A stretch of DNA of 64,000 nt, taken from contig OX459099.1 of assembly GCA_949775045.1 (NCBI GenBank), positions 1,768,501-1,832,500 of the forward strand, given 5' to 3'. Shown here piece by piece: positions 3,284 through 10,100 of the stretch. A program made the translations under genes and the position numbers. The first letter of the stretch is position 1, and each line of letters begins with the position of its first letter. This DNA is from Metridium senile (taxonomy: Eukaryota > Cnidaria > Anthozoa > Actiniaria > Metridiidae). The notes beneath the pieces were generated by a model that did not search any database, was not told the origin of the DNA, and worked only from the letters and a program-made list of their open reading frames with translations.

Positions 3284-4033
3284 TTAAAATATAAAAGGGA
3301 TTAAAGTTTTGCGTTGTCTAGGATAAAGTTCTCGTCCTCCAAGTCCATCAAACTCCATCAAGTACGCCTTGTGTTTTTTATAGGCATAAAAAACAAGTGT
3401 CACTGCACTTGCTAACAGAAACACTGCAGCAGGCAGAGTCCATGTTGCAAGCAGAAACCCAACCCATGATACTATCTCAAAGAAATAATGCGGACAAGAA
3501 ACAAACTCGAACATATATCCAGAAGGGATAACATGTTTCGTTTTCGACGACAAGTAAGATTTACGCTTCATCTTTCGAAAGGAGCGTAACAGCAAGTGGC
3601 AATGACAGTTTCCAAATTCCCCAACAAGAAAGACAAAACTGCCAACAACAGCCATCGGTAAGTAGGTAGGTTGATAGTCATTATCGTGACGCACTGCAAT
3701 ACCATTCCAGAAGGCAAACAACCAATAGTATAGAGGAGCACCTACGCTCTCGATGTAAGGCATACTTCTTCGATAATCATGGACAAAAAGTACTTCCATT
3801 GTCCGACGAAGAAAGTGAGCTTCCCACAGCGCAACGAAAAGGTAGCCAATGTACTTTGATTGGCCGAATTGAGAGTCCTTTGGACCAGGTACAAGACAGC
3901 CGGTAGCAGGAAAATAAGGTAGTTTTATCCCTGGAACTGTAAAAGCAACAAGAAAGGCTGCCATTGTTCCTATGTATGTTAGTGCATTGATGAAAACAGG
4001 ATTGCAACCTTTCGAACGTTCTTGGTCCGCCAT
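3284..4033 (-). CDS. Steroid 5-alpha-reductase / trans-2-enoyl-CoA reductase family protein
   Basis: An uninterrupted 249-aa reading frame starts at ATG 4033 (MADQERSKG). A GTG codon upstream at 4045 is open but an unlikely start. The protein has several hydrophobic segments and the C-terminal block typical of the steroid 5-alpha-reductase/TECR fold: GYMFEFVSCPHYFFEIVSW near residues 170-190, then KHKAYLMEF near the C-terminus and a terminal IPFIF. The middle segment HFLRRTMEVLFVHDY is closest to very-long-chain enoyl-CoA reductase (TECR), which does the last step of fatty-acid elongation in the ER membrane. The N-terminal ubiquitin-like part of TECR is absent. The size, about 250 aa, suits the SRD5A branch as well, so the substrate is not assigned. 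Its lack of introns contrasts with its neighbours and could mean a retrocopy. It lies downstream of ATF4 on the same strand. Confidence 0.8.
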   Translation of the reverse strand: MADQERSKGCNPVFINALTYIGTMAAFLVAFTVPGIKLPYFPATGCLVPGPKDSQFGQSKYIGYLFVALWEAHFLRRTMEVLFVHDYRRSMPYIESVGAPLYYWLFAFWNGIAVRHDNDYQPTYLPMAVVGSFVFLVGEFGNCHCHLLLRSFRKMKRKSYLSSKTKHVIPSGYMFEFVSCPHYFFEIVSWVGFLLATWTLPAAVFLLASAVTLVFYAYKKHKAYLMEFDGLGGRELYPRQRKTLIPFIF

Positions 4034-4489: not shown

Positions 4490-5718
4490 CTAATCTTGCT
4501 GCTGTCTTTGCTTAGTTTTATATACTTCTATCATCAAGTTTTTCAAATATTCTATTTCTTTGCTAATTGATGCAACTTGATCTTTTAACGTTTTATTTAC
4601 TTTTTCATGTTTTTCGACTTCATCAAAAAGTTGATCCTGTTCACTGCGTTTCTTCACTCTATATCTTGTAGCAGCATCTTTGTTCTGAACACGTTTTCTC
4701 TGTTTCTGAGCTACTGTCTTCACCTTGGGCTTTGGAGTCAACTGCTGTTTTGATGCAGGCCTAGAGTAAGGAGTTGGTCGCTTGGTAGTGCTCTGTGATT
4801 GGGTTTTTCCCTGTGCTTCAGGTTTAGTAGCATCAGCTGTCAGAAGATCTATCAGAGACACAGTGTTATCGCTGCTGTTGTCAGAATAGCTTGAACAAGG
4901 CGAGGATGGGCTAGACTCTAATCTTGAAGATCCCTCACTACCTGTACTAAAGGGAGACGAGGCTTGATACTCTGGAACTTTTTGTTCAGGTGTAAGTGGC
5001 ATCTCTGCTGGGACGGTCATGTTCTCCTCTGCAAGAGGGATTAGCAGTTCATCATTTAAATCTGGAAGAGTATTTCCACAAAGTGTACTGTCAATTTGGG
5101 TTAAATCGTGCAGAGTTGTGTCAGTTCCAGTTAGAGCAGAAGGGTCAAAGCTGTTGAAGTCAAACTTTTCAGTGAACCAGTTTGTCTCCAATAGCTGATT
5201 TCCACCTGAGGACAATAAATGATTTTTGTTTTATAATAGAACTCCAACATTCAACTGGGTTACTAGTTGTTAACGCCATTTTAAATATCTACACTGTGAC
5301 ATTCATGTGATGCAACTCTATTTATTGCAGCTGCTGATGCAATCGTCAAAGTCCGTGATTCAGCAGTTTTTTTGCCAACTCACATTCCCTAGGGGGGAGG
5401 GGGTGATACAGAGAGGCAATGAATATTTCCTAAACCCGCTCAAATTTCAAAACAAATGAAATTAAAAGATTGAAAAGAAAAGTAATGAAAATTATAATTA
5501 CCTCCAAGATCAAGCTCTTGAAGTATTTCTCCCGTCGAGAAATCTTCGTTCTCCTTGGTTGTTATCTGAAACACGTCATCATTCAGACCAGTGCCATCAT
5601 CGTACTGAGGCAAGCAAAGATCGAGGTTGGGAAAGAAATCCATCTCCTCGAAGGAGAGTAGATCTGTAAAATCGTTCATCGTATTCATTTTTGGTTTCTT
5701 TGTATACGTACGGGCCAT
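4490..5718 (-). CDS. ATF4: ATF4-type bZIP transcription factor
   Basis: Two coding exons, 5502-5718 and 4490-5205, join in frame to give 310 aa. The C-terminus is a basic-leucine-zipper: the basic region from about residue 239 contains QNKDAATRYRVKKRSEQ, and the zipper (about 261-300) includes KEIEYLKNLMIEV. These match the ATF4/ATF5 subfamily, not CREB or C/EBP. The N-terminus is acidic (DLLSFEEMDFFPNLD), like the ATF4 transactivation region, and the middle is serine/proline-rich. No DSG-type beta-TrCP degron is evident in the serine-rich part. ATF4 is the effector of the integrated stress response, switching on amino-acid-supply and redox genes. A 5' non-coding exon (to 6113) and two uORFs precede the start codon. 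The start at 5718 is chosen because it opens the acidic domain and is overlapped by uORF2 as in vertebrate ATF4. Confidence 0.92.
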
Positions 5719-6117
5719 CTATAATAATACTTATTTGGTTGTCCAGTAATCGGTTTATGTTTGAGGGTCTGAAACGATGAAGAAACACATACATGGTTAG
5801 CAAACATTGTACATAACGCGGAAATTGTCCAAAAATGCCATTTATTTGAACAATTTTCAGTTTAACATGTAGAAACAGATAGTCAACATCGAAATGATAG
5901 TTATCAAGCATTATTTCATTTTCAAATTGACAAAAATCGCAGTTTTAAAGAGACAGAATTCTTTAGTTTGATCAAAAAACGTGGGCGCGAAGGCACGTTT
6001 TACGCATGGTTGAATCTTTTCGATTTTAAACCCGAAAAACTTCGAATTTTCACATCGATTTTAGTTAAAATAACCAACAAAAACTCCAGTAAACAGTGGT
6101 GTAAATACTTACGCCAT
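5597..6117 (-). promoter_or_regulatory. ATF4 uORF2, 58 codons, overlaps the main start out of frame
   Basis: ATG at 6117 sits five bases before a GTAAGT donor (exon ends at 6113). Splicing to the acceptor before 5768 continues the frame as MAPSNINRLLDNQ through GDGFLSQPRSLL to a TGA at 5597-5599, 58 aa in all. It passes the ATF4 ATG (5718) in another frame and ends about 120 nt inside the coding region. Vertebrate uORF2 is 59 aa and likewise overlaps the ATF4 start. In that system uORF2 blocks ATF4 translation unless eIF2alpha is phosphorylated. The intron inside uORF2 (5769-6112) is visible here. Confidence 0.8.
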
Positions 6118-6169
6118 GGCTGCAATATTGATGCAGAAAAACGCTTTGCAAATTAATGCCAAAAATTCT

Positions 6170-6181
6170 TTACAACGCCAT
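6170..6181 (-). promoter_or_regulatory. ATF4 uORF1 (three codons)
   Basis: On the ATF4 strand ATG at 6181 is followed by two codons and TAA (M-A-L-stop). Vertebrate ATF4 also begins with a three-codon uORF1 that lets 40S subunits resume scanning. It lies 52 nt before uORF2. That it works the same way here is inferred from position and length. Confidence 0.75.
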
Positions 6182-7136
6182 TTTGAAGGGATGATGAAAT
6201 ATACTCGCTAAAAAACGTGTCACAAGTCTTCTAGACGTGGCTGATGCAATACCGCGAAATGATGTCATTTTGAACCAATCACAACAGCGAATTTCCTCTA
6301 AGGAGCCAATCACAAAAGATTCACAATATCGAGAAGCCAGTTTAGTGCTTGTTTCTAACCAGTTTCAAACCAGTTTATCGTGGACTTTGATCCGTTATTT
6401 TTAGCAATATTTATTCCGCCTTCGAAGTAGATGACGTTTTTAATATAAACTTCTTTTTCTATTTGGTTTAACTGCGTTATTGATTTTCCTGAACTGCTTT
6501 TTGAAAAATATAATGTTAAATCCTTAGATATGTCTTTTAAAACAGCTGCATTTTTGTCAGTATGTTTTAAATGAATATTTAGTAAACAACTTCATAAAAA
6601 CGTATTAGCCTACTGTATTAGAAATAACGTTTGATACCTTTGATTTGATAATAACAAAATTATCTAATATTGTTGTTGTCTAGACAACCAGCTCGTTTGC
6701 GGAGGGGAGGGGGCTAAGTGAAGAAATCACTTCTGAGGAGGGGAGGCTAAAAACAGCTTTCTCGAAACTTTGAATTGGGTAGCCTGTGGATTGTTTTCTT
6801 GGCCGCCATTGTTGTTCGTAAAAAATTTGAAAATTTCTCCTTCGTAAACGCTTCTCCTTCCAATAAATTACGTTTGGCGCAAGGAAAACAGGTTTATCAT
6901 TCAATTGGAACTGTTTTAGCAAGACTTTATCTTCTAGGGAGAGCTTTTGACAGCGAGACAGAAAGTACCCGCTTGCAAGCACATGGTCGAGAATTTAATT
7001 GTTTTTCCGGTATTTTATTTTGCTGCTTTGTTAATTACCAAAGAAGGTTTAATACAATTATCAACAGTGAAGCTAGTTTGAGGATGTAAAATGGAAGGAG
7101 AAAGTTCAGTTTCAACGAACTAGCTGTTTCCTCGCT
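6182..7136. promoter_or_regulatory. Head-to-head ATF4 / USP36 promoter interval
   Basis: The interval holds CCAAT boxes near 6274 and 6305 (CCAATCACA), the CARE at 6242-6250 and a GATGTCAT near 6260. The USP36-side 5' leader carries a 10-codon uORF at 7091-7123 (ATGGAAGGAGAA to TAG). No protein-coding gene is seen. Confidence 0.5.
6242..6250 (-). promoter_or_regulatory. C/EBP-ATF response element (amino-acid response element)
   Basis: TGATGCAAT (plus strand; ATTGCATCA on the gene strand) exactly fits the CARE consensus TGATGNAAN bound by ATF4 heterodimers. It lies about 60 bp upstream of uORF1, in the likely core promoter, which suggests autoregulation. Another TGATGCAAT is in the gene's own second intron near 5335. 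Confidence 0.55.
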
Positions 7137-10100
7137 ATGTCTTGTGAAGTGATGTCTTCACAAACGGAACGATTTTCCAAAGACTCTAACGTCATTTCAA
7201 GTAAGCTAGCAAACGATTTGGACGCCAAAGTAACATCCTCGTCCAAGCAAGTACTTCTACAACGTATTGAATTCAAAGCTGCATCAAAACCTGATGAACA
7301 GTACGAAAAATTAAAGAAGAAATATAAACCTTTGAATCAAAGTAGTCCACAAGTGAATGGACATGATAAGCACCATAGTCATGCCAGTAGCTCAAAGCAA
7401 GACGATCTACCAAGTCCAAAGACGGTTTTATGTAATGTTGATAAGATTTCATTACAGTGGAGTAAGCTAAGACGAGTTGGTCCTGGATTAAGTAACCTTG
7501 GCAACACATGTTATTTAAACTCTGTTATTCAAGTACTTACTTACACTGCCCCCCTGGTGAACTTTTTGGCAACACAGGAGCACTCACGAGAATGTAAGTA
7601 TGCTCTGATTTCATACATTTCACAACAGTATTTAAAATAACAATTATTATTATTGGTTTTCTACGTGCCTCTTGCCGAGCTGTTATCCAGGTTTGAGTCC
7701 TGGCTCAGACATGGACCGTAAGTGAGTTGGATTTGTTTCTCCAAGGGTTTTTCTCAGGGTTATGCCTGAGATAAACTGGTGTATAAGTCTAATTTATAAA
7801 AAATAAGGAGTTTCTAGCCAGTATAATTGCAGTGGCCCTTCATATAAATCCACAGCAATATCAAAGTATTTTATATTGTAGGCAGAGCAGTTGGGTTTTG
7901 CATGATGTGTGAGCTACAGCGTCACGTTCTGAGATCATTCAACCATCACCAGAATGAATCAATCAAGCCTTTGGCCATCATACAGAAACTAAGATGTAAG
8001 TAACAAGTTATAAGCCTGCGTTGCACACTCAATTTTGTTATACTCAAATATTCACCAAAATGTAGAGTCTGCTGAACCGTTATGCTTCCTGGTGATGCAT
8101 GATGCATTCGAAGCGCACAAAGGATTGTTTGTCAAAACAAACAGTTCCAAAATGGCGCCTCGAGACAGCAACGATTTCGGTTAATTTTATTACTAATAGA
8201 GCAGCAGAGAGCTTTTGTTGTCCAAGTTACATATAATGTTTTAATGTAAAGGACGTATTTATAGAGGGTTAACACAGGAAACAACTCTCTGGAGCGACGC
8301 CATCTTGGAACTGTTGTGATGCACCAAAAATGCTTTTGATTGACTTATGCTAGCCGGAAGTGCGTGCATGCAAAATCCCCTGGTTATCAGTTTCCAATAT
8401 GCATGTGGTGATGTTTTAAAATAAGACCAGGGATACTTGTTTTCACTTCAAATTCAATAAAAAGTGGACCTAAAAATCCTTCAGTATTGTCTACAAATAA
8501 TAAGAGATTGGTTAAATTTAAAGCAGACTGGTCTGTAAGTGATAAGCACCTTTGAGTAAAGTTAGAATATATATTTAAAATTGGCGCATATAAATCATAT
8601 ATCGTTTCATGCCTCCAAGACAGTAACATTTCATCATTATTTATTTCTGTTGTAGGTATTGCTAAGCATTTGAGATTTGGAAATCAAGAGGATGCACATG
8701 AGTTTCTTCGTTATGTCATTGATGGGATGCAGAAGAGTTGCCTTTATGGATATGAAAAGTAGGTAGCAGGTTTCTCTGACATACACACTTTCCAAGAAAG
8801 TTTGTCACCTGTGAAAAGCACACAAGCTAGTGGCGCAAAGGATCATGGATCAGTTAATGTGCATTTGGAATGCCTTTCTTGTTGTTTGATAATTAAAGTC
8901 AAAATGGACAATTCTCAATAACATATTGACAAGCATAGCAATGTGGCCATGCGTTCTAATAAAGTATACATAGGTAACCCATAATCCCCTGCATTAATAG
9001 CTTGTAGGCGTTTATAATCCCCTGCATTACTAGCTTGTAGGCGTTTCACTTCACGGGTGACAGAGTTTCTCGGAAAGGGTGTATACAATAAAATATAAGT
9101 TGGATCATAACCTTATCAATGACTGAATCAGAATATGGCAACCTATTGTTCTTGACTGGCTATCCCTCTGTTCACTTTGGAACACAATGTAGTTTTTAAC
9201 ATGTATGAGAGGCTAGCCAGTTGAGAACAGTCAAGTAGATTGGCCTATCCAGTCAAGTTGATTCGGTGTGTGGGATGCTATCTTTTTTTTAATCCTTGTT
9301 TTTTTTACAGACTTGACAAAGCATCCAAAGAAACTACTGTCATTCATAGAATATTTAGTGGATATTACAGAAGTCAAGGTTTGTTAAGATATCTTTTTTG
9401 AAACTTGCAAACAGATATTGTAATGCATATATTTAGCATTCTCTTTTAGTAACTAATAAATCATCTTGATGAAGTTTTTATAAGGATTTGTATCCCAGGT
9501 TCTTTCTCAGTTACCCACTGAGCAGAGGTTCCTTTCTCTCTTACCTGGAACAACAAGGAAAGAAACATTTCTTTCCTCATTGTTCCAGGTAAGAGAGAAA
9601 GGAACCTCTGCTCGCAGGTTCTTTCTCAGTATAAGAATCAATGAAAATAATGCTAGTCTTATAATTTATGTTGGTTCTCTTTCAGTGAGATGTCTTATGT
9701 GTCATTATACCTCAAGTACATTTGACCCACTGATGGATGTTATGCTTGATGTAAAGGTATCTAAAAACTGCTAGTTATGACAAATCAATCTGTTGATGAT
9801 GATTATGGTAATGATAGTGATAATGATTCAATGATTGTCATCTCCATCTTAATCATTGAGCTATCATCACCATTATAATCATCAGCAAAATCATAATAAT
9901 AATGACAATAATCATCATCATCATCCACAAACCGTGTTCTGGACCCCCAACTGACTAGCACGGATATAGGAAGCGATTTCTGATTGGCTCATGCCTTCTT
10001 CGATTCTAACATGCTCGCTGATTGGTCAAAAGCTTGTCATAACTATCTTTCATCGCACCAAAGTCCAAAGTTTAATGCTACACATGGTTTTGACCTTTGA

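Follow-up and report, generated by a model that had tools for sequence, protein, structure and literature searches.

uORF pairs upstream of ATF4

In mammals, the available text of PMC3434475 gives ATF4 a uORF1 of 3 residues and a uORF2 of 59 residues that overlaps ATF4 by 83 nt, from which (59 codons plus the stop, less 83 nt) we derive a distance of ~97 nt between the uORF2 start and the ATF4 start. Outside the vertebrates, Hiraishi et al., 2014 (PMC4176352), in the portions of the article at hand, describe a pair of ATF4 uORFs in those metazoa that could be examined, nematodes excepted, naming Aplysia and Hydra, and the accessible text of a 2017 review (PMC5666893) refers to two uORFs that are "conserved from invertebrates to mammals". 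A Drosophila crc leader reporter is induced via PERK, according to the excerpted text of PMC12816580. Among literature on the ATF4 uORF, Hydra occurred as a whole word in PMC4176352 alone, and in the accessible part of PMC6677750, a paper from the Nematostella literature, the four mentions of ATF4 refer to ATF4 motifs and one reference title.

We compared these systems with the ATF4 leader of the sea anemone Metridium senile, located in a 64-kb stretch of DNA (the window). The ORFs, their reading frames and the identity of the ATF4 gene can be read directly at this locus, and we infer the splicing and the transcription start. The features, all on the minus strand, are:

6181-6170 (-): uORF1, ATG GCG TTG TAA, coding for M-A-L and a stop (3 codons), with A at -3 and G at +4
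6169-6118 (-): spacer of 52 nt from the uORF1 stop to the uORF2 ATG
6117-6113 (-): first exon part of uORF2, ATGGC, with start context GCCATGG
6112-5769 (-): predicted intron 1, 344 nt, GTAAGT...CATCGTTTCAG, with the pyrimidine-rich acceptor TTTCAG
5768-5597 (-): second exon part of uORF2, ending with the stop TGA at 5599-5597
5718-5502 (-): ATF4 coding exon 1, by conceptual splice
5501-5206 (-): predicted intron 2, 296 nt
5205-4490 (-): ATF4 coding exon 2, which carries the bZIP (protein residues 238-295)

When its two parts are conceptually spliced (6117-6113 joined to 5768-5597), uORF2 is 177 nt long with its stop and codes for 58 aa. In the conceptually spliced leader the ATF4 ATG at 5718 lies 55 nt from the uORF2 start, and uORF2 then overlaps ATF4 by 122 nt in a different frame. 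The positions given for uORF1, the 52-nt spacer, uORF2 and the ATF4 start in the preliminary description of this DNA all check base for base. Both uORFs start in a strong context and the first ATF4 AUG has a T at -3. Codons 11 (5688) and 14 (5679) of ATF4 are further in-frame ATGs that also fall within the uORF2 overlap, and the AUG of codon 11, unlike the first AUG, has an A at -3. Between 6268 and the ATF4 start, the spliced leader has no AUGs besides those of the two uORFs. It also folds more weakly than shuffled sequences, with 197 of 200 shuffles folding at least as well (z 1.80), which suits scanning. A search of a protein collection with the uORF2 peptide gave one candidate with shared words and zero matches at E <=10; that collection probably contains few predictions of small overlapping ORFs.

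The mammalian and Metridium leaders both have a 3-codon uORF1 followed by a long out-of-frame uORF2 that crosses the ATF4 start, with 58 codons here versus 59 codons in mammals. The preliminary description took this kept geometry as a sign of selection on uORF2 length. We regard that argument as unsupported because the similar totals are built from unequal parts, specifically 55 nt ahead of the ATF4 start plus 122 nt of overlap in Metridium versus ~97 nt plus 83 nt in the mammalian leader as derived from the available text, and the near-equal totals look coincidental. What the predicted Metridium layout and the mammalian layout have in common is their topology and being out of frame.

We know of no uORF in yeast that overlaps the GCN4 start. 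GCN4 resembles the locus described here in having a reinitiation switch driven by eIF2 availability (available text of PMC4176352), and differs from it in a leader with four small uORFs (available text of PMC10187673). As described in the accessible portions of PMC4176352, the insect (crc) and Aplysia ATF4 leaders have a short permissive uORF1 and a long non-permissive uORF2 similar to the predicted Metridium arrangement; however, insect uORF2 has a second in-frame AUG in a strong context, which is absent from the 58 codons of Metridium uORF2. Hydra (PMC4176352, Figure 4B, compared through text and legend) is likewise a cnidarian with paired uORFs, but it is a hydrozoan whereas Metridium is an anthozoan.

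Since paired ATF4 uORFs have already been reported for a cnidarian, the Metridium locus is largely a further example of the kind one would expect, with some novelty in the arrangement of intron and overlap. Thus, the claim in the preliminary description that the ATF4 switch is conserved outside vertebrates holds in that the layout is predicted here, but as a novelty it is anticipated by what could be consulted of PMC4176352 and PMC5666893. The gene structure predicted for this anthozoan does add evidence that the ATF4 switch predates the cnidarian/bilaterian split, and it comes from a group in which the responses to heat and symbiosis stress attract broad interest. Possible new details are the distance from the uORF2 stop to an exon junction, which suggests nonsense-mediated decay (NMD), and a conserved ATF4 N-terminus inside the overlap. 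Together with the overlap over three in-frame ATF4 AUGs, NMD coupling and the conserved N-terminus provide testable specifics.

The ATF4 gene and a delayed-reinitiation model

The full coding sequence obtained by conceptual splicing (5718-5502 joined to 5205-4490) codes for 310 aa, and its stop codon sits within the last exon. The bZIP at the C-terminus matches Pfam PF00170 with 44.5 bits relative to a cut-off of 27.6, and the one PDB match at E <=0.001 is 1ci6, which is ATF-4 (E 1.7e-11). The closest named relative is Exaiptasia ATF-4 with 72% identity, followed among other named ATF-4 relatives by those of Actinia (54%) and Nematostella (45%). These matches, along with the ORF anatomy, support the earlier identification of the gene as ATF4 and of its leader as having the architecture of the ATF4 switch.

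Additional analysis of the 389-Mb genome with the whole protein scored both exons of the gene itself and, elsewhere, one weak match to a bZIP out of at least nine candidates, and no processed ATF4 copy was seen in this search, in which the candidate counts are lower bounds. The weak match (L004, G000:C2:44933272-44933625) covers ATF4 residues 168-299 with 33% identity (E 3.3e-4) and is perhaps another bZIP gene.

We consider it very probable that the Metridium ATF4 leader works as the known delayed-reinitiation switch, and from its layout we infer both reinitiation and a stress response. Specifically, most ribosomes would translate the 3-codon uORF1 and remain bound to the mRNA. With abundant ternary complex, re-acquisition would take place within the 52 nt that follow, leading to a start at uORF2 (GCCATGG), and ribosomes translating uORF2 would then pass the ATF4 start in the other frame and stop 122 nt inside the coding sequence. 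When eIF2alpha is phosphorylated, some ribosomes would reach the ATF4 start, 55 nt on from the uORF2 start, before they have become competent, and ATF4 would be made. The long overlap would also blanket the next two in-frame ATF4 AUGs.

In regards to the parts of this pathway, the genome has an eIF2alpha exon with the Ser51 segment GMILLSELSRRR (SELSRRR), which matches solved eIF2alpha chains. It also has a frame in which a HisRS-like domain occurs together with HGTP_anticodon2, the combination seen in GCN2, and from these non-kinase domains we read this frame as GCN2-like. The PP1c_bdg (PPP1R15/GADD34) family gave no match in a search of the same genome that had no working positive control.

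Chance, transcription start and intron retention

We explored how readily such a layout arises using dinucleotide-shuffled leaders, each placed ahead of ATF4 codons that had been shuffled synonymously, with 5000 shuffles for each assumed transcription start. A pair made up of a short uORF and then an out-of-frame uORF overlapping the ATF4 start appeared in 1614, 1085 and 1271 of the 5000 shuffles for starts at 6267, 6220 and 6200, respectively. A loose uORF pair therefore occurs in 22-32% of shuffles and is unremarkable on its own. The stricter layout, with exactly two uAUGs and an overlapping uORF of >=50 codons, was recovered in just 0, 3 and 3 of 5000 shuffles for the same starts. The uORF2 frame stayed open for >=122 nt into the coding sequence in 17 of 5000 synonymous shuffles, the mean being 29.6 nt.

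We also counted the codon junctions at which a T would introduce a stop into the frame of uORF2. Within codons 1-40 such a stop-making T is present at one of nine junctions, the one being the uORF2 stop itself, versus 11/21 for the remaining degenerate codons of this region (one-sided p 0.040). When the count inside the overlap (1/9) is compared with the rest of the coding sequence (30/73) the difference is not significant (p 0.078). These junction counts point weakly in the same direction as the frame-openness shuffles, and selection for an open overlapping uORF2 frame is likely. That the uORF arrangement is a by-product of chance with no regulatory role is consistent with the frequency of the loose pair and with one of the two junction tests being not significant; set against the scarcity of the exact layout and of so long an open frame among the shuffles, and against the same layout reported for ATF4 orthologues of other phyla (in the available text of PMC4176352), it is hardly credible.

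The size of uORF1 depends on where transcription begins. An ATG at 6268 shares the frame of uORF1 and carries an A at -3, so that uORF1 would have 32 codons if transcription began upstream of 6268, and a 3-codon uORF1 needs a start downstream of it. The sequence around this ATG contains the following:

6310-6236 (-): promoter-like strip, recognized by consensus matches only
6310-6306 and 6279-6275 (-): ATTGG boxes, consensus match
6267-6260 (-): TGACATCA, consensus match
6249-6242 (-): TTGCATCA, consensus match, also among the TGATGCAA sites
6240-6236 (-): CCACG, consensus match

The motifs in this strip include what we take to be CRE-like and CARE-like elements, the sequence TGATGCAA presumably being CARE-like. 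Because they look like a promoter, these motifs argue for a transcription start downstream of 6268, and they suggest a candidate promoter at 6310-6236.

This bears on a different reading, according to which uORF2 is a simple constitutive brake, the mRNA starts upstream of 6268, the resulting 32-codon first uORF is no reinitiation element and ATF4 is made by leaky scanning. The in-frame ATG at 6268 with its A at -3 fits such a reading, as does the extra uORF that arthropods carry upstream of uORF1, with its AUG in a poor context (available text of PMC4176352). We nevertheless regard it as improbable, given that the ATTGG, CRE-like and CARE-like motifs suggest a start downstream of 6268, and that the strong context of both uORF starts should limit leaky scanning. 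A further reading holds that transcripts from an alternative promoter or with a retained intron 1 dominate, that intronic ORFs act as the brake and that the two-uORF switch is a lesser form. Intron 1 would indeed add 11 AUGs if retained, and three of these open ORFs of 104, 65 and 40 codons that cross the ATF4 start, with the 104- and 65-codon ORFs ending at 5597, the same stop as uORF2. Against this stand a consensus GTAAGT donor, a branch-like CTAAC (5800-5796, ~27 nt ahead of the acceptor) and a pyrimidine-rich acceptor in the right order, as well as a spliced leader that is so nearly free of other AUGs, and we judge dominance of these transcripts to be very unlikely.

The same intronic ORFs bear on the delayed-reinitiation model that we favor, in regards to how splicing might enter into it. 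The preliminary description held that the intron inside uORF2 links control to splicing, as retention would end uORF2 elsewhere. With retention, uORF2 would indeed end after 2 codons, at a TAA that is in frame within the GTAAGT of the donor. What does not follow is a release of ATF4, because the three intronic ORFs overlap the ATF4 start and a transcript retaining intron 1 should remain repressed. Intron retention as an ATF4 on-switch was therefore rejected on sequence. NMD appears the more likely link to splicing.

Possible consequences of the overlap

The exon junction complex lies ~20-24 nt before an exon junction, and in mammals the ATF4 mRNA is targeted by NMD. We took a uORF stop >=50 nt upstream of an exon junction, or of its complex, as the mark of a transcript open to NMD that depends on the exon junction complex. 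From the uORF2 stop to the predicted intron 2 junction there are 95 nt, more than this distance whether one counts to the junction or to the complex. The uORF1 stop precedes its junction by 57 nt and lies beyond this distance only when counted to the junction itself. The position of the uORF2 stop indicates that translation of uORF2 probably also marks the ATF4 mRNA for decay. With such coupling, stress would raise ATF4 translation and mRNA stability together.

The overlap also covers the start of the ATF4 protein. We aligned 19 rows, namely the Metridium protein and 18 of 100 matches that were chosen for coverage; 17 of these rows include codon 1. Residues 1-11 (5718-5686, minus strand), which read MART[Y/L]..K...M and whose codons fall entirely within the uORF2 overlap, form the top-ranking of the 225 11-residue windows that start at residues 1-225, ahead of the bZIP. 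Across the 17 rows the mean pairwise identity of residues 1-11 is 0.727 versus 0.408 for residues 12-41, although the first value is inflated by the shared initial Met and the choice of rows that reach codon 1 favors conserved starts. The window that starts at residue 2 ranks third with 0.662 (17 rows, 225 windows), and a Met is present at codon 11 in all 19 aligned sequences.

This conservation of the N-terminus could be explained by dual coding or by a function of the peptide. Tentatively, and with considerable doubt as to the whole, we suggest that the first ATF4 codons of anemones and corals are dual-coding, with an N-terminus that is partly held by uORF2, and that the downstream intron makes translation of uORF2 a trigger for NMD. 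If this is true then one choice of start codon sets both the translation of ATF4 and the lifetime of its mRNA.

Finally, we note several features of the surrounding DNA. The sequence TGATGCAA occurs ten times in the window relative to an expected 4.75, a count reached in two of 100 shuffles. Four of these sites are in or near ATF4, at 6242-6249, 5335-5342, 5308-5315 and 4568-4575, the last of which is coding, and such sites in and near the gene raise the possibility of ATF4 autoregulation. ATF4 is followed closely, in the same orientation, by an uninterrupted 249-aa ORF of the 3-oxo-5-alpha-steroid 4-dehydrogenase family (PF02544) at 3284-4033 (-). On the other side, an ORF at 7137-7640 (+) that matches ubiquitin carboxyl-terminal hydrolase (UCH) is positioned head to head with ATF4, ~0.96 kb from uORF1, an orientation that makes a promoter region shared with ATF4 possible.
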